Assembly: GCF_003056405.1 (NCBI RefSeq)
Contig: NZ_PYVZ01000006.1
Location: forward strand, 124,001-188,000
DNA: 64,000 bases
DNA from: Devosia indica
Lineage (GTDB): Bacteria; Pseudomonadota; Alphaproteobacteria; Rhizobiales; Devosiaceae
Reading direction: 5' to 3'
Under the pieces are notes generated by a model that was not told the DNA's origin, searched no databases, and saw nothing but the letters and a program-made list of their open reading frames with translations. The number at the start of each line of letters is the position of its first letter. Within the stretch, counting starts at the first letter, position 1. Positions 46,324 to 56,413 of this stretch are shown in pieces. A program made the position numbers and the translations under genes.

Positions 46324-46347
46324 GGCCAGCAGCGGAAGCTGCCGGCC
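46324..46347. terminator. Terminator hairpin between convergent genes
   Basis: A stem of nine G-C/A-T pairs with one A-C mismatch (GGCCAGCAGC / GCTGCCGGCC, 4-base loop) lies between the TraB stop and the end of the sugar operon. On the minus strand TTTTCTATTG follows, so it mainly terminates the sugar operon. Confidence 0.7.
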
Positions 46348-46371: not shown

Positions 46372-47523
46372 TCAGACGTCCGCGAAACGGGTCCACTTGC
46401 TGTCGTTCTGGCTGGAATTCACCGAAGCGGTGATGAACTGCATGCCTTCGATACCGTCCGCCATGGTGGGCAGCAGGCTCTCGAATTCAGCACCTTCACC
46501 ACGGATGACGGCAGCAAACTGGCTGTAGAGCGTGGCGAAGGCCTCAAGATAGCCTTCCGGATGGCCGGCAGGAATACGCACGTTCATCGAGGCAGCCGGG
46601 GGCACGGAAATAGAGCCACCGCGGGTCAGCAATTGCCGCGGCTTACCGAATTCGGTGAACCACATGTAGTTCGGGTTCTCCTGGCTCCATTCGAGACCAC
46701 CTTTGTCACCATAGACGCGGAGCTGAAGGCCGTTTTCCTTGCCAACCGCAACCTGGCTGGCCCAGAGCATGCCTTTGGCTCCACCTTCAAAGCGCAGCAT
46801 GATGTGGACGTTGTCGTCCAACTGGCGGCCCGGCACGAAAGCGGTCAGATCAGCCGACACGGCTTCCGTCTTGAGGCCGGTGACAAAGCGAAGCAAATTA
46901 TAGGCATGGGTGCCGATATCGCCGATACAGCCACCAGCGCCCGAGCGCGACGGATCAGTGCGCCAGGCGGCCTGCTTGTTATCTGCGTCGGCCGCTTCGG
47001 TGAGCCAATCCTGGGCATATTCGGCCTGAACAACACGAATATTGCCCAAGGCCCCGGACGCGACGAGCTCGCGCGCCTGACGGATCAGAGGGTAACCGGT
47101 GTAGTTGTGTGTCAGCAGGAACTTGGCACCATTGGCCGGTTTGATGTCCGTCAGCTTGCGGGCGTCGTCCAGGCTTGAGGTGATCGGCTTGTCGCATATG
47201 ACGTGGATTCCGGCCTCAAGAAATGCCTTGGTCGGACCGAAATGCATGTGGTTTGGCGTGACGATGGAAACCGCCTGGATGCCATCGGGGCGGGCGGCCT
47301 CAGACTTGGCCATCTCCTCATAAGAGGTATAGATTCTATCCTCGGCCAGACCAAGATTTTTGCCGGATTCCCTGGCGACCTCGGGCCGCGACGACAACGC
47401 GCCGGCGACCAGTTCGAAATCGCCATCTATGCGGGATGCGATGCGGTGTACCTGGCCGATAAAGGCCCCAGTACCACCACCGACCATGCCCAGACGAATT
47501 GGCTTTGCGCCATTTTCAGCCAT
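46372..47523 (-). CDS. Gfo/Idh/MocA-family NAD(P)-dependent sugar oxidoreductase 1
   Basis: The N-terminal Rossmann domain starts RLGMVGGGTGAFIGQVHRIA with the GxGxxG-type loop. The catalytic lysine region CDKPITSSLDDA and the HNYTGYPLIRQAR segment are conserved. The C-terminal alpha/beta domain carries GGCIGDIGTHAYNLLRFVTG with the usual D-x3-H pair. Members oxidise or reduce sugar hydroxyls; the closest-looking members act on inositols and on 3-keto sugar pathways, an inference only. It is the last gene of the LacI-controlled sugar operon, 23 bases after isomerase 1. Confidence 0.87.
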   Translation of the reverse strand: MAENGAKPIRLGMVGGGTGAFIGQVHRIASRIDGDFELVAGALSSRPEVARESGKNLGLAEDRIYTSYEEMAKSEAARPDGIQAVSIVTPNHMHFGPTKAFLEAGIHVICDKPITSSLDDARKLTDIKPANGAKFLLTHNYTGYPLIRQARELVASGALGNIRVVQAEYAQDWLTEAADADNKQAAWRTDPSRSGAGGCIGDIGTHAYNLLRFVTGLKTEAVSADLTAFVPGRQLDDNVHIMLRFEGGAKGMLWASQVAVGKENGLQLRVYGDKGGLEWSQENPNYMWFTEFGKPRQLLTRGGSISVPPAASMNVRIPAGHPEGYLEAFATLYSQFAAVIRGEGAEFESLLPTMADGIEGMQFITASVNSSQNDSKWTRFADV

Positions 47524-47546
47524 TTTTCTCTCCCTGCTCCGACGGC

Positions 47547-48605
47547 TTACGACAAACCGAGCATCTTGCGATTGGCGGCCTGATCGGTACCGCCGCTGGC
47601 AAAATCGTCAAAGGCTTTTTCGGTGACACGGATGATATAGCTCTGGATCAGTTCAGCGCCTTCGCGCGCACCATCTTCCGGATGCTTGAGGGCGCATTCC
47701 CATTCGAGCACAGCCCAGCCCTTGAAATTGTTGGCGGCCATCTTGGAAAAGATTGCCGGGAAATCGACCTGGCCATCACCAATGGAGCGGAACCGCCCGG
47801 CCCGATCCACCCAGGACTGGAAGCCGCCATAAACACCCTGGCGACCCGTCGGGTTGAACTCGGCGTCCTTCACGTGGAAGGCCTTGATGCGGTCCTTGTA
47901 GATGTCGATGTAGTCCAGGTAGTCGAGCTGCTGCAGCACGAAATGGCTCGGATCATAAAGAAGATTGGCGCGCGGGTGATTGTTCACGCGTTCGAGGAAC
48001 ATTTCGTAGGAAACACCATCATGCAGGTCTTCGCCGGGATGGATCTCATAACAGACGTCGACGCCTGCATCGTCGAAGGCGTTGAGGATCGGCGTCCAGC
48101 GACGGGCCAGTTCGTCAAAGGCTTCTTCGACAAGACCAGCGGGACGCTGCGGCCAGGGATAGAGGTATGGCCAGGCCAGGGCGCCTGAGAACGTCGCATG
48201 GCCGGTCAGACCAAGGTTTTGCGAGGCCTTGGCTGCGTGGAGCATGGTCTGCACGGCCCACTCCTGGCGGGCCTTGGGGTTGCCGTGCACGCTGGCGGGT
48301 GCAAAGCCGTCAAAGGCGGTGTCATAGGCGGGATGCACGGCGACAAGCTGGCCCTGCAAATGGGTTGAGAGCTCGGTGATCTCAAGGCCATGGCTATTGA
48401 CTATGCCTTTGACCTCGTCGGCATAAGTCTTTGAACTAGCAGCTTTTTCCAGATCAATAAAGCTCGACACCCAGGTCGGAATCTGCACGCCCTTATAGCC
48501 GAGCCCCGCAGCCCATTTGCAAATATTGTCAAGATTGTCGAAAGGGGCGGCATCGCCCGCGAACTGCGCCAGGAAAATAGCCGGGCCCTTGATGGTGGTC
48601 GCCAT
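47547..48605 (-). CDS. Sugar phosphate isomerase/epimerase-like TIM-barrel protein 1
   Basis: This xylose-isomerase-like (AP-endonuclease-2 superfamily) TIM barrel has 352 residues. Metal-site candidates are Glu and His in CYEIHPGEDLHDG, Asp and His in LLYDPSHFVLQQ, His in IKAFHVKDAEF, and the late Glu in WAVLEWECAL. The ATG at 48605 has GAGGAG 8 bases upstream. Members include hexulose epimerases and 3-keto-glycoside hydrolase-type enzymes; the exact reaction is unknown. It is paired with Gfo/Idh protein 1 downstream. Confidence 0.85.
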   Translation of the reverse strand: MATTIKGPAIFLAQFAGDAAPFDNLDNICKWAAGLGYKGVQIPTWVSSFIDLEKAASSKTYADEVKGIVNSHGLEITELSTHLQGQLVAVHPAYDTAFDGFAPASVHGNPKARQEWAVQTMLHAAKASQNLGLTGHATFSGALAWPYLYPWPQRPAGLVEEAFDELARRWTPILNAFDDAGVDVCYEIHPGEDLHDGVSYEMFLERVNNHPRANLLYDPSHFVLQQLDYLDYIDIYKDRIKAFHVKDAEFNPTGRQGVYGGFQSWVDRAGRFRSIGDGQVDFPAIFSKMAANNFKGWAVLEWECALKHPEDGAREGAELIQSYIIRVTEKAFDDFASGGTDQAANRKMLGLS

Positions 48606-48695
48606 GTGGTCTCTCCTCTTGTTGCCCCGCAAGCCGCACGGATGGGGCCAGTCCTGTTCGTCTCATTGCGGGTTTTGCGGCCCCGCATATATGAC

Positions 48696-48717
48696 GGGCG
48701 GCGATCACTCGCCGCCC
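48696..48717 (-). other. Intergenic hairpin between the two oxidoreductase/isomerase modules
   Basis: A perfect 9-bp stem (GGGCGGCGA / TCGCCGCCC) with loop TCAC lies in the 170-base gap between oxidoreductase 2 and isomerase 1. No U-run follows on the minus strand, so it looks like an mRNA stability or processing element inside the operon. Confidence 0.65.
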
Positions 48718-48775
48718 TGACATGTTAGCCGATACTGTTGACCGGTGTGCAGCACCTGTCAATGAAGTACGTTCA

Positions 48776-49918
48776 TCAGGCCTTCAGGAGGGCCTGCGCC
48801 TCTGCAATGCCGAGTGCGCGCGGACGCTCACAGGTGGTGGTCAGCGTGAGAACCTCGCCGGTTTCACCGGCCTTGAGCAGACCTGTCATCACTTCGACCA
48901 CATGCAACGCGACATCGAGTCCGCAACGAGCGGTTTCGCCATTCTCGATGGAGAGCATCATGTCGGCCAGGCCGGCGCAACGGTAGTTGGCGCGCGGCGT
49001 GTCCTTTTCGAGGTCCTGGTTCGGCTTGCCGAAGGGATGATCCCAAGGCGTGACCGGGGTCCGCGTACCTTCGATGCCCGTGGTGACCAGGTCCCCGCCG
49101 AAGAAGTTCGGATCGGGCACAAAGATCGAGCCTTCGGTGCCGTAGAGCTCGATATTGTGGTGGCCATGGGCCGCCACGTCCCAGCTTGCGCCGATGGTGA
49201 TGATGGCGCCGGAGTGGAACTCAAGCACGCCATGAATGGTGGTCGGGGTGCCAACCTTGATGATGCTGCCCTTGTTCGGACCATCGGCGCTGACGACGCG
49301 CTCGGCCCGCGCCATGTTGGTGAAGGCCGAAAGACGCTTCACCGGGCCAAGCAGGTGGACAAGATCGGTGATGTAATAGGGTCCGAGATCAAGGATCGGG
49401 CCGCCGCCGGGCTGGAAGAAAAAGTCCGGATTGGGGTGCCAATGCTCCATGCCGCGGCTCATCACATGGGTTGTGCCGCTCATGATCTTGCCCAGCTTGC
49501 CCGAATCGATGATCTCGCGGGCCTGCTGATGGGCTCCACCCAGGAAGGTGTCGGGAGCCGAACCGACCTTCAGACCGCGTTCGTCGGCCGCCTTCTTAAG
49601 GGCCAGGCCCTCATCGACAGTCAGCACGAATGGCTTTTCCGAATAGGAATGCTTGCCGGCCGAAATAATATCGTTGGACACCTGATAGTGGGTCGAGGGG
49701 ATCGTCAGATTGACGATCACATCGAGCTCACTGTTCTTGAGCAGCTCGTCCGGTGTCTGCGCTGCCACGCCGAACTCCTCGGCCCGTAACTTGGCGGCTT
49801 CCGGCCGGATGTCGGCCACGGCCCGCACGTCGAGCCCCTTGAACAGGGGCGCAAGGCGCAGATAGGCCGCCGAGATATTGCCGGCACCCATGATGCCGAC
49901 GCCATAAGTCTTTGTCAT
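48776..49918 (-). CDS. Gfo/Idh/MocA-family NAD(P)-dependent sugar oxidoreductase 2
   Basis: The 380-residue Rossmann oxidoreductase begins YGVGIMGAGNISAAYLRLAP (GxGxxS/A variant) and has the catalytic-lysine motif YSEKPFVLTVDEG. The C-terminal domain carries FFFQPGGGPILDLGPYYITDLVHLLGP with the conserved D-x3-Y/H elements. It is only distantly similar to oxidoreductase 1, so the two probably use different substrates or intermediates. Its ATG lies 3 bases after the stop of isomerase 2. Confidence 0.87.
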   Translation of the reverse strand: MTKTYGVGIMGAGNISAAYLRLAPLFKGLDVRAVADIRPEAAKLRAEEFGVAAQTPDELLKNSELDVIVNLTIPSTHYQVSNDIISAGKHSYSEKPFVLTVDEGLALKKAADERGLKVGSAPDTFLGGAHQQAREIIDSGKLGKIMSGTTHVMSRGMEHWHPNPDFFFQPGGGPILDLGPYYITDLVHLLGPVKRLSAFTNMARAERVVSADGPNKGSIIKVGTPTTIHGVLEFHSGAIITIGASWDVAAHGHHNIELYGTEGSIFVPDPNFFGGDLVTTGIEGTRTPVTPWDHPFGKPNQDLEKDTPRANYRCAGLADMMLSIENGETARCGLDVALHVVEVMTGLLKAGETGEVLTLTTTCERPRALGIAEAQALLKA

Positions 49919-49921
49919 GGA

Positions 49922-50671
49922 TCAGACCCCATATCCCTTGAGAGCGGCCGCAGCATTGCGTGCAAAGCGGATGGCATCGCTCGGCTTGTCATGCTCGGCA
50001 ACGAAGTAACGGGCCTTGGTCTTGGCCTTGATCTGGTTGATGTAGTTTGGCCAGTCCAAGGTGCCCATGCCGACATCGGCCCAGCCATCTTCATCGAGTT
50101 TTTCCCCGGCAGGCGCGATGTCCTTGACGTGAACCGCGGTGATGCGGCTGCCAAGTTTGTCCATCCAGAAGATCGGATCCTCGTTGGCGCGGACGACCCA
50201 GGCCAAGTCCATTTCCCACTGCGTATCGGGGGATGCTTCAAGAATGAGCTCGATCGGCGTTTTGCCGTTGGCATCCTTGGTGAATTCCCAGTGGTGGTTA
50301 TGGTAGCCGAAGCCCTTGCCGGCAGCCTTGAAGGCAGCTGCGATTTTCGCGAGCCCCTCGGCAAATTCCTGCCAGTTTCCGCCGCCGGTGCGGAAAGCTT
50401 CGGACGGAGGCGCAGGGCAATAAACGGTCTGAATGCCGACAGTTTCGGCGATCTTGAGGGCCGCGTCGGTGTCCTCAAGCTGACCATAGCCCATATGGGC
50501 GGTCGGCATGGTCAGGCCTGCATTCTTCAGACTCTGGGCAAGTGCCGCAGGGTCCTCGAACTGGCCGCCCCAGCCCTCGACCTGGGTATAGCCCAGGCTG
50601 GACAGGGTCTTGAGCGTGTCGTCGAGGGACGCCTCATTGCGGGCGCTGTAAAGCTGGTACGAAAAGTCCAT
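49922..50671 (-). CDS. Sugar phosphate isomerase/epimerase-like TIM-barrel protein 2
   Basis: This compact xylose-isomerase-like barrel of 249 residues has the metal-binding elements FGYHNHHWEF (His/Glu), WEMDLAWVVRA (Asp) and ITAVHVKDIAP (His, Asp), with a final VAEHDKP (Glu). The ATG at 50671 has GAGG 6 bases upstream and starts the barrel at MDFSYQLYSARNE. It is shorter than isomerase 1 and belongs to a different branch of the superfamily. It is coupled to oxidoreductase 2 (3-base gap). Confidence 0.87.
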   Translation of the reverse strand: MDFSYQLYSARNEASLDDTLKTLSSLGYTQVEGWGGQFEDPAALAQSLKNAGLTMPTAHMGYGQLEDTDAALKIAETVGIQTVYCPAPPSEAFRTGGGNWQEFAEGLAKIAAAFKAAGKGFGYHNHHWEFTKDANGKTPIELILEASPDTQWEMDLAWVVRANEDPIFWMDKLGSRITAVHVKDIAPAGEKLDEDGWADVGMGTLDWPNYINQIKAKTKARYFVAEHDKPSDAIRFARNAAAALKGYGV

Positions 50672-50804
50672 GATTGGCCTCGTCAGGGATGTTTGAAACA
50701 CGGTGTCGCGTCGGACCGGGAGATAGCCTGGCCAGGGGCTGGCGTCGCCGCGCCCGGACAGATCGACTGCCGCAAAAGTAAAGTGGATACCGGAATCCGG
50801 CGGA

Positions 50805-50825
50805 GCGGCGCCCCTGGGGCGCCGC
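50805..50825 (-). other. Intergenic hairpin after the sugar ABC ATPase gene
   Basis: A GC-rich perfect 10-bp inverted repeat (GCGGCGCCCC / GGGGCGCCGC, one base between arms) lies 20 bases beyond the ATPase stop. No U-run follows on the minus strand. It separates the transporter half of the operon from the enzyme half. Confidence 0.7.
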
Positions 50826-50844
50826 CCAATTTGTTGAGACCGGC

Positions 50845-51927
50845 TTAGAGCCGCTCTTCTGTGCCCGCGTCGAACAGCGAACCACGTGCAATATCAAAGC
50901 CGACCTGAATCTTGTCGCCAGCATGGATATCAATGTCGCTGCTGCAACGGAACGTGACCGACACGCCGGCAACAGTTGTCCAGGCCAGGGTTTCGGACCC
51001 CATGGGCTCGACGATTTCGATCTCGGCCTCTGTCTTGAACGGCATATCGGCCGCAGCCTCACCGACGAAGATATGTTCTGGACGAACACCCAGGATCGCC
51101 TTGGTTGAACCAGAGGTGGCACCGACAAAGTCATAGGTACCGACGGGGATGGCCGTGCCGTCTGCCGCAGTGAAGGTAGGACCGTTCAGCGTGCCCTCGA
51201 TGAAATTCATCGATGGCGAACCGACAAAGCCAGCCACGTAGAGGTTGACGGGCTTGTTGTAGATGGTGTGCGGGTCGGCCAATTGCTGAATGACGCCATT
51301 CTTCATGATGGCAATGCGGTCTGCCAGGGTCAGGGCCTCGATCTGGTCATGAGTCACGTAGATCATGGTGTTCTTGAGCCGCTGGTGCAGGCGCTTGATC
51401 TCGACACGCAGATCCGAGCGGAGCTTGGCATCAAGGTTGGACAAGGGCTCGTCGAACAGAAACACGTCAACGTCGCGCACCAGAGCGCGGCCGATGGCAA
51501 CGCGCTGGCGCTGACCACCCGAGAGATTGGCCGGTTTGCGGTTTAGCAAGGGCTCGATCTGCAGGATCTCGGACGCCCGCTTCACGCGTTGGTCGATTTC
51601 CGCCTTGGGCATGCCGGCAACACGCAGACCAAAGGACAGATTCCGCTCGACCGACATCTGCGGATAGAGGGCATAGGACTGAAACACCATGCCTATGCCG
51701 CGGTCCTTGGGTTCTTCCCAGGTGACATTCTTGCCGTTGATGAAGATCTGGCCGTCCGAGACGTCCAGCAGCCCCGCAATACAGTTCAGCAGGGTCGACT
51801 TGCCGCAGCCCGAAGGCCCGAGCAGGACGATGAATTCACCCTTTGCGATGTCGAGATTGAGGTGTTCGAGAACTTTCACGCTACCGAAGTTGAGCGAGAG
51901 GTCCTTGATGGAAACACTGGTTTGCAT
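50845..51927 (-). CDS. ugpC: Sugar ABC transporter ATPase (UgpC/MalK type)
   Basis: The CUT1-family ATPase has Walker A GPSGCGKST, Q-loop MVFQSYALYPQMSV, signature NLSGGQRQRVAIGRAL, Walker B VFLFDEPLSNLDAKL and a C-terminal MalK-like TOBE regulatory region (about residues 240-360). At 360 residues it is normal. These ATPases are often shared between sugar systems; the symbol marks the family only. It is downstream of the two permeases. Confidence 0.92.
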   Translation of the reverse strand: MQTSVSIKDLSLNFGSVKVLEHLNLDIAKGEFIVLLGPSGCGKSTLLNCIAGLLDVSDGQIFINGKNVTWEEPKDRGIGMVFQSYALYPQMSVERNLSFGLRVAGMPKAEIDQRVKRASEILQIEPLLNRKPANLSGGQRQRVAIGRALVRDVDVFLFDEPLSNLDAKLRSDLRVEIKRLHQRLKNTMIYVTHDQIEALTLADRIAIMKNGVIQQLADPHTIYNKPVNLYVAGFVGSPSMNFIEGTLNGPTFTAADGTAIPVGTYDFVGATSGSTKAILGVRPEHIFVGEAAADMPFKTEAEIEIVEPMGSETLAWTTVAGVSVTFRCSSDIDIHAGDKIQVGFDIARGSLFDAGTEERL

Positions 51928-51933
51928 CGGTAA

Positions 51934-52869
51934 TTATCCCTTCACGGCGCCGGCGGCGACGCCGCGTACAAACAGCTTGCCGGACACAAAGTAGATGATC
52001 AGTGGCACAAGCCCGGTCAGCACGGTTGCGGCCATGTTGACGTTGTATTCGGGCGTACCCTGAGCCGAGTTGACGATGTTGTTGAGCTGCACGGTCATGG
52101 GCAGGTTCTGCGTGCCCGCAAAGACTACACCGAACAGGAAGTCATTCCAGATACCGGTGACCTGCAGGATCAACGCAACAACGAAGATCGGCAGCGACAT
52201 GGGCAGCATGATCTCGAAGAAGATGCGCCAGAACCCTGCCCCATCCACGCGTGCTGCCTTGAACAGCTCCTGCGGAAGCGACGCGAAATAGTTACGGAAC
52301 AGCAGTGTCAGGATCGGCATGCCGAAGATGGTGTGGATGAGAATGACAGCCTGCAGAGTGCCGAAGATGCCCAGTTCACGAGTAATCATCACCAGCGGAT
52401 AGAGCATGACCTGATAGGGTATGAACGAGCCGAAGATCAGGATGGAGAAGAAGATTTCCGAACCCTTGAAACGCCAGTTGACCAACGCGTAGCCATTCAC
52501 GGCGGCGATGAAGATGGACACAATGGTCGACGGAATCGTGATCTTCACCGAGTTCCAGAAACCGGGGGCGAGCCCCTCGCAAGTCAAGCCAGTACAGGCG
52601 CTGGTCCAGGCCTTGACCCAGGCATCGAAGCTGATCTGGCTGGGCAGCGCGAAGATGTTGCCGAAACGGATTTCGGGCATCGTCTTGAACGAGGTGACCA
52701 GCATCACATAGAGCGGGAACAGGAAGTAGAGGGTGAAAAAGACCAGGATCGAATAGATGATGATCTTTTGCGGGGTAAAGAAAGGCTTGGGGCGCGGACC
52801 ACGGGGGCCGGATTCCACCTTTGTGTGCGTGTCCGGGGCGGGCCCGGTCATGGTTGCGGTCTGGCTCAT
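51934..52869 (-). CDS. Sugar ABC transporter permease, MalG type
   Basis: The carbohydrate CUT1 permease has six membrane helices, beginning IIIYSILVFFTLYFLFPLYVMLVTSFKTMPEI. The EAA-type loop is EALFKAARVDGAGFW-like (QELFKAARVDGAGFWRIFFEIMLP). It overlaps the end of the MalF-type gene by 4 bases (ATGA), so the two are translated together. Length 311. Confidence 0.93.
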   Translation of the reverse strand: MSQTATMTGPAPDTHTKVESGPRGPRPKPFFTPQKIIIYSILVFFTLYFLFPLYVMLVTSFKTMPEIRFGNIFALPSQISFDAWVKAWTSACTGLTCEGLAPGFWNSVKITIPSTIVSIFIAAVNGYALVNWRFKGSEIFFSILIFGSFIPYQVMLYPLVMITRELGIFGTLQAVILIHTIFGMPILTLLFRNYFASLPQELFKAARVDGAGFWRIFFEIMLPMSLPIFVVALILQVTGIWNDFLFGVVFAGTQNLPMTVQLNNIVNSAQGTPEYNVNMAATVLTGLVPLIIYFVSGKLFVRGVAAGAVKG

Positions 52870-53807
52870 GAGCGGCGACCCTTTCCACCAAATTCAAGAT
52901 AGGCCCAAGGCACCATGATGATCAAAACAGTCAGCAGCATCATCGTTGCCGCAGCGAGACCCTGGCCAATATTGCCAGCGCCGAACATGTAATTGTAGAC
53001 GTATTTGGCTGGCACCTCCGAGGAAATACCGGGACCGCCATTGGTCAGAGCGACCACAAGATCATAAAGGCGGACAATGCCGGAACCAATCAGTACCACG
53101 GCCGTCACCAGCACGCCGCGCATCATGGGAATGACGACGGAGATGTAAGTGCGCCAGGTCGGAATGCCGTCCACACGCGCTGCCTTCCAGATCTCTTCAT
53201 CGACGCCGCGCAGGCCTGCCAGCATGAGCACCATGCAGAAGCCCACGCCCTGCCAGAGGCCAGCGATCAATAGGGCGAACAAAACCATGCGCGGATTGGC
53301 AATCCAGTCGAATGTGAAGCTTTCCCAGCCCAGGTTCCGCATCGTTCCCTGCAGGCCAAGCGTCGGATTCATAATCCACTGCCAGACGAGGCCCGTCACA
53401 ATGAAGGAGAGGGCAAAGGGATAGAGCATGATGGTGCGGAAGGCGCTTTCGAAGCGAATCTTCTGGTCCATCAAAACCGCGAGCAAGAAACCGAACCCGA
53501 GGGTAAAGACCAGCGACATCGCGCCATACGTCACCAGATTCCAGACAGAAACGTTCCAGCGCGAGGTGCCGAAGAGACGTTCATACTGCTCGAAGCCGAT
53601 GAAGTCGCCGCTCGGCAGCAGTCGGGAATTGGTAAATGAGTAGTAGACCGTCCAGATGGTACAGCCAATGAACACGACCAGCACTGTCGCCATCATCGGA
53701 AGGGCGGCGATCTTGGCGGGGACATTGTGAAGGAAGGTTTTTCTAAGGAAGCCGCGCCGACCGGTATTCCCAGCGCCCCTTCCAGTGTCAACGGCTGTAT
53801 CCGCCAT
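52866..53807 (-). CDS. Sugar ABC transporter permease, MalF type
   Basis: The CUT1 permease is the partner of the MalG-type gene. The N-terminal helix is AALPMMATVLVVFIGCTIWTVYYSF, and the ATPase-contact loop is EEIWKAARVDGIPTWRTYISVVIP. Six helices fit in 313 residues. The ribosome binding site GGAGAG lies 8 bases before the ATG. It follows the binding-protein gene after a 93-base gap containing a long hairpin. Confidence 0.93.
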   Translation of the reverse strand: MADTAVDTGRGAGNTGRRGFLRKTFLHNVPAKIAALPMMATVLVVFIGCTIWTVYYSFTNSRLLPSGDFIGFEQYERLFGTSRWNVSVWNLVTYGAMSLVFTLGFGFLLAVLMDQKIRFESAFRTIMLYPFALSFIVTGLVWQWIMNPTLGLQGTMRNLGWESFTFDWIANPRMVLFALLIAGLWQGVGFCMVLMLAGLRGVDEEIWKAARVDGIPTWRTYISVVIPMMRGVLVTAVVLIGSGIVRLYDLVVALTNGGPGISSEVPAKYVYNYMFGAGNIGQGLAAATMMLLTVLIIMVPWAYLEFGGKGRRS

Positions 53808-53828
53808 TACGATTTCTCTCCATAAGGA

Positions 53829-53861
53829 AGTGGTCGACCTTGTCGATCAAGGCCGACCACT
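53829..53861 (-). other. Intergenic hairpin between sugar binding-protein and permease genes
   Basis: A 14-bp stem with a single mismatch (AGTGGTCG-ACCTTG / CAAGG-C-CGACCACT, 5-base loop) follows the binding-protein stop. No U-run follows on the minus strand. Position and strength match mRNA-protecting hairpins that raise binding-protein output relative to permeases. Confidence 0.75.
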
Positions 53862-53900
53862 ACATTTAACGATGAGAACAAGGTCTCATCCAGTCACAGA

Positions 53901-55142
53901 TCAGTCTGCCGACTCGATGATCGAGGCATAACGCTCGACATAGTCGTCGACCGTGATGCTGTCGTCGTCGAGGAACTCGGTGTTGAGATCCTGGAGCTGC
54001 TGCTGGGTGTCGCTGGAGAGAGCGAAGTCACCCGAAGGCAGCAGGCCATTTTCGAGCATGCCAATTGCCTTCTGCATGCAGGGGTTGGCAGCCGACAGAT
54101 CGATATCCGTGCGGATCGGCATGGAACCCTTGACCAGGTTGAAGTTCAACTGGCCTTCCGGCGAGATCAGGATCTTGGCCAGATCGGCCTGAGCCTGAAT
54201 CACGGCCGGATCGGTACCTTCGGGCAGAACCGGGAAGTAGAACGAGTCACCGCCACCGGTCAGCTGATCGCCAAGGCCAAGAGCGGGGAGACATTCATAA
54301 TCTTCACCGGCAACGCCACCCGCAACCTGCAGGTCACCGGCAAGCCAGTCACCATGAATGTTGCCAGCAACTTCGCCAGCCAGGATCTGATTGCCCACGT
54401 CACCAAAGGACGGCACCATCATTTCAGGCGAGATCACCGAACGAAGATTGTCGAGAGCCTCGGCAACCTTGCGGAACTCCGGCCCACGAACAGCTTCGGC
54501 GCTCTTGTCGCGGTTGATGGCGAGCACGAGATCCGAACCACCCAGGCCAGACATCAGCACACCCGGAACACCCGAGAAGGGCCAGCCAGTGGCCAGACCG
54601 AAGGGGAGAATGCCTGCTTCCTGGAGAGCTGGCCAGGAGGCCACATACTCATCCCAGTTGGTCGGCACGGGCTGACCAATTTCCTCATAGGCGGCGGTGG
54701 AGACCCACAGCCAGTCCCAAGAGTGAATGTTGATCGGCAGGCAGTAGATGCCGCCTTCATACATGCACGGCTCAAGCAGGGACTGATCGACGTAGAAGTC
54801 GAGACCGCCCATTTCTTCAACGATCGGAGTCAGGTCGCGCATGAGGCCGGCCTGGATGAGTTCTTCGGCGTCACGGCCGGTATTCATCTGGGTGGCGCCC
54901 ATCGGGTCACCGCCGATAATGCGACTGATGATGACGGGGTTCGCGCCGGTGCCGGAGCCGGCCAGCGCACTATCGACCCAGTTGTTGCCAGTTTGCTCTT
55001 CAAACAGCTCGGCAAATTCGGCAATGGCCGCGGCTTCACCAGCCGAGGTCCACCAGTGGGTCACTTCCAGATCCACGGCATACGCAGACGTGGAGCCAAG
55101 GAAAGCAGTTGCCATAGCGGCAACCACTGCAAACTTTTTCAT
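53901..55142 (-). CDS. Sugar ABC transporter substrate-binding protein
   Basis: This periplasmic family 1 solute-binding protein has a signal peptide ending SAYA (about residue 22). The mature start VDLEVTHWWTSAGEAAAIAEF is typical of glucose/mannose-type binding proteins. An internal IHSWDWLWVSTAAYEEIG and late PVLPEGTDPAVI also fit. The ATG at 55142 has GGAGG 8 bases upstream. At 413 residues it is normal. It is the first gene of the operon, directly downstream of the two LacI operator candidates. The ligand cannot be predicted beyond a sugar. Confidence 0.9.
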   Translation of the reverse strand: MKKFAVVAAMATAFLGSTSAYAVDLEVTHWWTSAGEAAAIAEFAELFEEQTGNNWVDSALAGSGTGANPVIISRIIGGDPMGATQMNTGRDAEELIQAGLMRDLTPIVEEMGGLDFYVDQSLLEPCMYEGGIYCLPINIHSWDWLWVSTAAYEEIGQPVPTNWDEYVASWPALQEAGILPFGLATGWPFSGVPGVLMSGLGGSDLVLAINRDKSAEAVRGPEFRKVAEALDNLRSVISPEMMVPSFGDVGNQILAGEVAGNIHGDWLAGDLQVAGGVAGEDYECLPALGLGDQLTGGGDSFYFPVLPEGTDPAVIQAQADLAKILISPEGQLNFNLVKGSMPIRTDIDLSAANPCMQKAIGMLENGLLPSGDFALSSDTQQQLQDLNTEFLDDDSITVDDYVERYASIIESAD

Positions 55143-55232: not shown

Positions 55233-55248
55233 GTGTAATCGATTGCAC
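55233..55248. promoter_or_regulatory. LacI-family operator candidate 1
   Basis: The near-palindrome GTGTAATC-GATTGCAC (one mismatch per half) is centred on CG and has the AATCGATT core typical of LacI-family sites. It lies in the 224-base gap between the divergent lacI and binding-protein genes. Its centre is 35 bp from operator candidate 2. Confidence 0.75.
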
Positions 55249-55267: not shown

Positions 55268-55283
55268 GTGCAATCGATTTCAG
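55268..55283. promoter_or_regulatory. LacI-family operator candidate 2
   Basis: The palindrome GTGCAATC-GATTTCAG shares the GCAATCGATT core with candidate 1 and matches it in 12 of 16 positions when aligned on the CG centre. Two such sites in one divergent gap suggest cooperative repression of the sugar operon and autoregulation of lacI. Confidence 0.72.
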
Positions 55284-55366: not shown

Positions 55367-56413
55367 ATGACCGAAACGAGAAAAACGCCGACAATACAAG
55401 ATGTTGCGCGTTCGGCGAACGTATCGACTGCCACCGTGAGCCGCGCGTTGTCGAGCCCCGACAGGGTCAGCGAGAGCACACGGGCCCGTGTTTCGGAGGC
55501 CATTCGTGTAACCGGTTACACTTTGAACCAGGCGGCGCGGTCTTTGCGCCAACGGACGGCAAAAACCATACTGGTAGCCTTGCCCGACATCCGGAATTCC
55601 TTCTTCTCATCCATTCTGGATGCGGTGGAGCGCGAGGCCACCAACCGGGGCTACGGCGTGCTTGTGGCCAACCTGTTCCTAGCCAGATCACCAGCCCAAA
55701 GATTGCAGGATTACATGCTGTCCAATCGGGCCGACGGATTGCTGTTGCTCGATGGCTCGCTGGACCTCTCGTCGCTGCATAGTCTGGTCCGGCCGCCCAA
55801 TTCAGTGCCGCTGGTCGTCGCCTGCGAGGAGATTCCGAACTCGGGATTTCATACCGTTCTGACTGACAATCTGTCGGCGGGCGAGCGCGCGACGCGCCAT
55901 CTGATTGATCTGGGCCATCGCCAGATCGCGCATCTCCTGGGGCCCGAGGGCAATGTGGTCGCGCGTGACAGACTGGCCGGCTACACCAATGCGCTGACAC
56001 AGGCCGATCTTCCAGTGCAACAGCAATGGCTGTTTCGCGGCAACTTCGACATGGAGAGCGGATTTGCTGCCGCCGCACATTTCATGTCCCTCAGCGTGCG
56101 CCCGACCGCAGTCTTTGCCGCCAATGACGAATCGGCAATCGGCTTCTTGTCGGGGTTACGCCAATATGGCCTGACTTGCCCTCGTGACATCTCCATGATC
56201 GGTTTCGACGACCTTGGGGTTGCCGCCCATTATACGCCACCCCTGACGACCATGCGGCAACCGCGAGAATTGCTGGGGCGGATGGCCGCCGAAATGCTGA
56301 TCGACATTCTGGAGGACGCAGAGCACCGGCGCGGCCCCATGCGCATTGTCCTCAATTCCGAACTCATCGTTCGCGAAAGCACGGCACATCTGCCGTTGAG
56401 AACAAGTGGTTGA
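55367..56413 (+). CDS. LacI-family transcriptional regulator of the sugar operon
   Basis: The N-terminal helix-turn-helix and hinge are clear: TIQDVARSANVSTATVSRALSS (residues about 9-30), then VSEATR-type YTLNQAARSLRQ. The periplasmic-binding-like sugar domain follows (residues about 65-340) with FAANDESAIGFLSGLRQYGL and DISMIGFDDLGVAAHYTPPLTTM. At 348 residues it is full length. The divergent position opposite the ABC sugar genes and the paired palindromes in between indicate local control. Confidence 0.93.
   Translation: MTETRKTPTIQDVARSANVSTATVSRALSSPDRVSESTRARVSEAIRVTGYTLNQAARSLRQRTAKTILVALPDIRNSFFSSILDAVEREATNRGYGVLVANLFLARSPAQRLQDYMLSNRADGLLLLDGSLDLSSLHSLVRPPNSVPLVVACEEIPNSGFHTVLTDNLSAGERATRHLIDLGHRQIAHLLGPEGNVVARDRLAGYTNALTQADLPVQQQWLFRGNFDMESGFAAAAHFMSLSVRPTAVFAANDESAIGFLSGLRQYGLTCPRDISMIGFDDLGVAAHYTPPLTTMRQPRELLGRMAAEMLIDILEDAEHRRGPMRIVLNSELIVRESTAHLPLRTSG

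Follow-up and report, generated by a model that had tools for sequence, protein, structure and literature searches.

A LacI-controlled operon of Devosia indica predicted to import glycosides and cleave them without hydrolysis

The 64,000-nucleotide stretch of Devosia indica DNA analyzed here (contig NZ_PYVZ01000006.1, positions 124,001 to 188,000; hereafter the window) carries an operon of eight minus-strand genes at 46372-55142, with a divergent LacI gene upstream. We consider with good confidence that this is a LacI-controlled operon for importing and cleaving a glycoside, the substrate most likely being a beta-glucoside or a related beta-glycoside. Its enzymes most likely constitute a published four-step non-hydrolytic pathway of oxidation, beta-elimination, hydration and reduction. 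In this scheme the ATP-binding cassette (ABC) transporter would import the glycoside and GfoB would oxidize C3 of the sugar with NAD+, after which OGE would break the glycosidic bond by beta-elimination to yield 2-hydroxy-3-keto-glucal and set free the aglycone (or second sugar). HYD would then add water to the keto-glucal to give 3-keto-glucose, which GfoA would reduce to glucose. The new elements are a first enzyme predicted not to be a flavoprotein, a probable regulon for beta-glycosides, and specificity genes that appear to have been swapped between strains. Four proteins with generic annotations ("oxidoreductase" and "sugar phosphate isomerase/epimerase") would thereby gain steps in a recently discovered mode of glycosidic bond cleavage, in soil bacteria that are widespread. 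The features of the region are as follows.

46324-46347, minus strand: terminator-like hairpin with a T-rich tail (10 pairs, 8 of them G-C, then TTTTCTATTG), after the last gene
46372-47523, minus strand: GfoA (Gfo/Idh 1), Gfo/Idh/MocA oxidoreductase by Pfam, predicted 3-keto-glucose reductase, step 4
47547-48605, minus strand: HYD (barrel 1), 2-hydroxy-3-keto-glucal hydratase by its match to AtHYD (PDB 8RO4), step 3
48776-49918, minus strand: GfoB (Gfo/Idh 2), predicted NAD-dependent glycoside 3-dehydrogenase, from Pfam Gfo/Idh/MocA and linkage to the lyase, step 1
49922-50671, minus strand: OGE (barrel 2), predicted Mn-dependent 3-keto-glycoside 1,2-lyase, from AtOGE residues and fold model, step 2
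50845-51927, minus strand: MalK/UgpC-type ABC ATPase (NF008653, 432.8 bits against a cut-off of 432)
51934-52869, minus strand: MalG-type permease (PF00528)
52866-53807, minus strand: MalF-type permease (PF00528)
53901-55142, minus strand: sugar-binding protein with a signal peptide-like start (PF01547; PDB matches 5XPJ, 5DVF and 2B3B, sugar/glucose-binding proteins)
55234-55247, no strand assigned: LacI-type operator 1, TGTAATCGATTGCA, exact match, kept in the genus
55269-55282, no strand assigned: LacI-type operator 2, TGCAATCGATTTCA, exact match, kept in the genus
55367-56413, plus strand: divergent LacI-family repressor, by profile matches

Enzymes of the predicted pathway

The active site and fold of the lyase were identified by comparison with solved proteins. 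OGE matched AtOGE of Agrobacterium tumefaciens (PDB 8BVK) with 121 bits, and all eight of the AtOGE residues that form the two metal positions and the catalytic residues (PMC10628242) are conserved in it (E39, H66, H132, H134, E161, D163, H189, and E233 in AtOGE numbering). The same eight sites are kept in 42 of 43 OGE homologues. The AlphaFold (AF2) model of OGE had a predicted local distance difference test score (pLDDT) of 96.1, and its best solved matches were the 3-keto-beta-glucopyranoside-1,2-lyases AL1 and BT1, with AtOGE close behind (PDB 8TCR, 8TCT, and 8BVK). From these residues and this model, OGE is predicted to be a Mn2+ barrel lyase that cleaves 3-keto-glycosides by beta-elimination.

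By its sequence, HYD clearly belongs to the AtHYD family of 2-hydroxy-3-keto-glucal hydratases, being 72% identical over 348 amino acids to AtHYD of A. tumefaciens (PDB 8RO4; 607 bits, phmmer). GfoA, which is adjacent to it in the operon, accompanies the hydratase in 71 of 80 HYD loci, mostly from Pseudomonadota and Bacteroidota. Its best PDB match is 3V5N (493 bits), and residues K112, D202, and H206 are invariant across 124 homologues. GfoA is predicted to be the 3-keto-glucose reductase that partners the hydratase. In the same 80 loci, GfoB was found in all seven with a strong OGE homologue (Fisher p 1e-8). Because of these two linkages the four genes pair as dehydrogenase with lyase and hydratase with reductase along a single linear path, in place of the two oxidoreductase/isomerase modules proposed in an earlier note on this DNA.

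An aspartate that closes the second strand usually signals NAD+ use. GfoB carries D36 at this position, and both D36 and K95 are invariant in 53 of 53 homologues, while GfoA has Ser-Ser and no acid there; our prediction from these residues is that GfoB uses NAD+ and GfoA a different cofactor. Genome searches covered the organism's own assembly (3.95 Mb, a Devosia-type soil bacterium). The flavin enzyme GlycDH was not found in this genome, which lacks the Gluconate_2-dh3 subunit (PF13618) and has one GMC protein only. This sole GMC flavoprotein adjoins sulfatase-like and aldehyde dehydrogenase-like genes and was read as part of a choline (bet) locus. Since the flavin enzyme of the Agrobacterium pathway is missing, GfoB is likely the first enzyme, which we infer to be a C3-dehydrogenase for the glycoside.

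Some HYD loci were of other kinds. HYD and GfoA occur together with a CUT2-type sugar transporter in 24 loci and with a CUT1-type in 17 more, with no lyase or C3-dehydrogenase detected nearby (including L017-L024, L027, L028, L030, L032-L034, L040, L041, L043, and L044); such loci may import sugars already oxidized to the 3-keto form, or their partners may be encoded elsewhere. Marine Pelagibacteraceae (L081, L083, L089, L090, and L092) have HYD (72%) and GfoA (57%) with an ABC transporter containing two ATPase genes. In addition, a lyase near a close AtHYD homologue on the tumour plasmid of Rhizobium rhododendri (L175:12324-12830) is annotated as a short hypothetical protein; it covers about half of AtOGE (71%) and looks truncated.

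Operon layout and a probable beta-glycoside regulon

The eight genes lie where the earlier note had placed them, in the same order and all on the minus strand, and Pfam agrees on their domains, placing two proteins in the Gfo/Idh/MocA family and two among the xylose-isomerase-like barrels. The range given there stopped short of the operator region and the divergent LacI gene (55367-56413). Identity is low within each pair, at 23% for the Gfo/Idh proteins and 25% (over 135 residues) for the barrels, which bears out the note's view that no recent duplication occurred. Gene order is kept in 33 of 34 same-genus loci, the remaining locus being interrupted at a contig end.

The divergent promoter contains two exact copies of TGNAATCGATTNCA, at 55234 and 55269, 35 bp apart, for which the chance expectation in the window is 0.16 even when one mismatch is tolerated. 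Nearly all same-genus loci have the pair. Just two further exact sites were found in the whole genome, and a reversed control pattern gave none. These two sites (L134:5931-5944 and L135:6018-6031) precede a glycoside hydrolase family 1 (GH1) beta-glucosidase and a GH2 beta-mannosidase-like gene, respectively. The former lies 77 bp upstream of the beta-glucosidase, which passed TIGR03356 (590 against 478.5 bits); the protein downstream of the latter contains mannosidase domains. Furthermore, when the regions upstream of another 12 GH1 and another 20 GH2 genes were checked, every one had a site with two mismatches or fewer, against a background of 0.08 per 500 bp, a rate that includes the true sites. 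Comparison of the sites with orthologue positions indicated that both placements recur across the genus. The absence of a kinase, aldolase, or glycosidase noted earlier is correct for the operon itself, but the same operator stands at two glycosidase genes elsewhere, and judging from these sites the glycosidase-free operon probably shares a beta-glycoside regulon with them. The shared operator suggests that hydrolytic and non-hydrolytic cleavage run side by side in these cells.

Assigning the GH1 and GH2 sites to the operon LacI alone was considered and is weakened by three genomes (G007, G018, and G025) in which the sites are retained but a close orthologue of that repressor is absent. In other Devosia genomes (L137:3161 and L140:3001) the operator precedes a different LacI gene, and several LacI proteins may share the site.

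A strong GC-rich hairpin at 50805-50825, in the 173 bp that separate the ATPase gene from the lyase gene, may allow separate expression levels for transporter and enzymes. In the hairpin scan the number of terminator-like hairpins across the region was not above that in shuffled sequence, and a scan for sigma-70 promoters gave fewer matches than shuffled sequence, so no promoter calls were taken from it.

Lyase and transporter variation among Devosia strains

Lyases from same-genus genomes fall into two main alleles, one about 77-96% identical to the lyase of the window and the other about 51-60%. GfoB, which is located 3 bp from the lyase, holds 75-97% identity across the same genomes, and DNA identity falls around the lyase alone (for example, 54% in L100 vs 84% in L098). 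When the types are mapped onto a tree built from the core enzymes, six or more changes of lyase type are required, along with nine or more of binding-protein type, and all four combinations of lyase type and transporter type were found. The lyases of L111 and L116 nest within another clade (approximately unbiased (AU) test, p 0.0125 vs holding them apart, for a group picked post hoc from the tree). Eighteen positions are fixed differently between the two alleles, of which seven sit no more than two residues from a catalytic one, against 1.9 expected (p 0.001). Because of the alleles, the trees, and the differences close to the active site, an exchange of specificity parts is suggested, in which lyase and transporter genes were apparently swapped between Devosia strains while the dehydrogenase, hydratase, and reductase stayed. 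Three Devosia loci (L113, L118, and L127) have two or more tandem lyase genes or pieces, with one of a third type (48% to the window lyase).

We tentatively raise the possibility, which we hold to be less than even, that the operon acts as a chassis in which recombination between Devosia strains swaps the lyase and, independently, the binding protein and permeases. The fixed core of dehydrogenase, hydratase, and reductase would thereby be redirected to other glycosides, while sharing its operator with conventional beta-glycosidases. As elimination erases the configuration at C2, it is conceivable that the same core could turn beta-mannosides into glucose. What sets substrate specificity in these lyases is directly testable, because nature supplies two alleles, disproportionately different around the active site, in operons that are otherwise alike.

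Alternative pathways and known systems

Several points weigh against the proposed pathway and its regulation. OGE is just 30-36% identical to AtOGE and may therefore differ in the anomer or sugar that it prefers. GfoB is without a close characterized relative (best PDB match 59 bits), and a fold search with its model matched the family broadly and was not discriminating. GfoB and the flavin enzyme never occur together in the 80 loci, yet their mutual exclusion is not significant (p 0.59). Finally, there are 24 LacI-family matches in the genome, and because other LacI proteins may share the operator, the regulon is tied here to no single regulator.

Three other pathways were weighed. Catabolism of levoglucosan or another anhydrosugar, as by the lgd operon of Bacillus smithii, would involve a matching layout of gene types and matching intermediates; of the curated models, that for levoglucosan dehydrogenase scores highest with GfoA (119 bits), and the fold search with GfoB also returned this enzyme. 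The cut-off of that model (NF052479) is 650 bits, however, and GfoA and GfoB reach 119 and 53, so far under it that levoglucosan is an unlikely substrate; the operators, moreover, point to beta-glucosidase and beta-mannosidase-like genes, and we regard this route as improbable. We give slightly less credence still to epimerization instead of cleavage, in which a barrel would epimerize the 3-keto glycoside and the second Gfo/Idh protein would reduce it back, as the E. coli ycjQRS cluster reportedly does. The barrel fold and metal site are common to epimerases and lyases, and the OGE model matches both, but its best matches are lyases and a dedicated hydratase is required solely after bond breakage. 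Least probable, to the point of being scarcely credible, is catabolism of inositol or a rare inositol of the IolG/IolE type. All four enzymes are weakly similar to the IolG and IolE models, but their 44-66 bits lie below the cut-offs of 355 (TIGR04380) and 290 (TIGR04379), respectively. A keto-glucal hydratase shares 72% identity with barrel 1, and, by reading, no obvious IolB-, IolC-, IolD-, or IolJ-like genes were among the open reading frames around the operon.

Assignment as a haloarchaeal xylose dehydrogenase was ruled out by curated cut-offs. Non-hydrolytic glycoside cleavage is the reading we prefer. The core idea of the earlier note, that an imported glycoside undergoes oxidation to a 3-keto sugar, cleavage, and then reduction, is well supported, but the route it offered as a candidate is one already published. 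It had named grouping of the enzymes with a single known pathway as counting against its proposal; by curated models they do not group with inositol, xylose, or levoglucosan catabolism, and they largely do with the oxidation, elimination, hydration, and reduction pathway.

The closest known systems include two published pathways. The levoglucosan pathway of B. smithii (2020) was reconstituted in vitro using LgdA, LgdB1, LgdB2, and LgdC, whose gene cluster additionally encodes LacI and an ABC transporter (PMC7676230). The Agrobacterium O-glucoside pathway (Bitter 2023) was demonstrated for phlorizin and starts with a flavin enzyme (PMC10628242). The lgdA-lgdB1-lgdB2-lgdC operon resembles that of the window in its LacI, ABC transporter, two Gfo/Idh proteins, two unrelated barrels, and, by prediction, four-step chemistry; it differs in that its Gfo/Idh proteins are not close by the curated model and its substrate is an intramolecular glycoside. 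The GlycDH-AtOGE-AtHYD-Gfo operon of A. tumefaciens, which is reportedly the subject of a further study (Kastner 2024) tied to PDB 8RO4, has in common with the window the hydratase family (72%), the lyase active site, and, by prediction, a Gfo-type reductase and the pathway steps. Its lyase differs at the low identity given above, and its first enzyme is a GMC flavoprotein with a twin-arginine translocation (TAT) partner, whereas the window has a second, NAD-type Gfo/Idh protein. The AL1/BT1 lyases (PDB 8TCR, 8TCD, and 8TCT), although the best fold matches of OGE, are about 20% identical to it. Rhizobium/Agrobacterium plasmid loci (L011, L012, and L176) likewise contain an ABC transporter, an OGE-like barrel, HYD, and GfoA. 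A GfoB-like Gfo/Idh protein is present in L012 (57.7%) and L176 (45.7%), while the extra Gfo/Idh of L011 has no GfoB match; unlike the window operon, L012 is arranged as two divergent units, and L011 and L176 have other gene orders.

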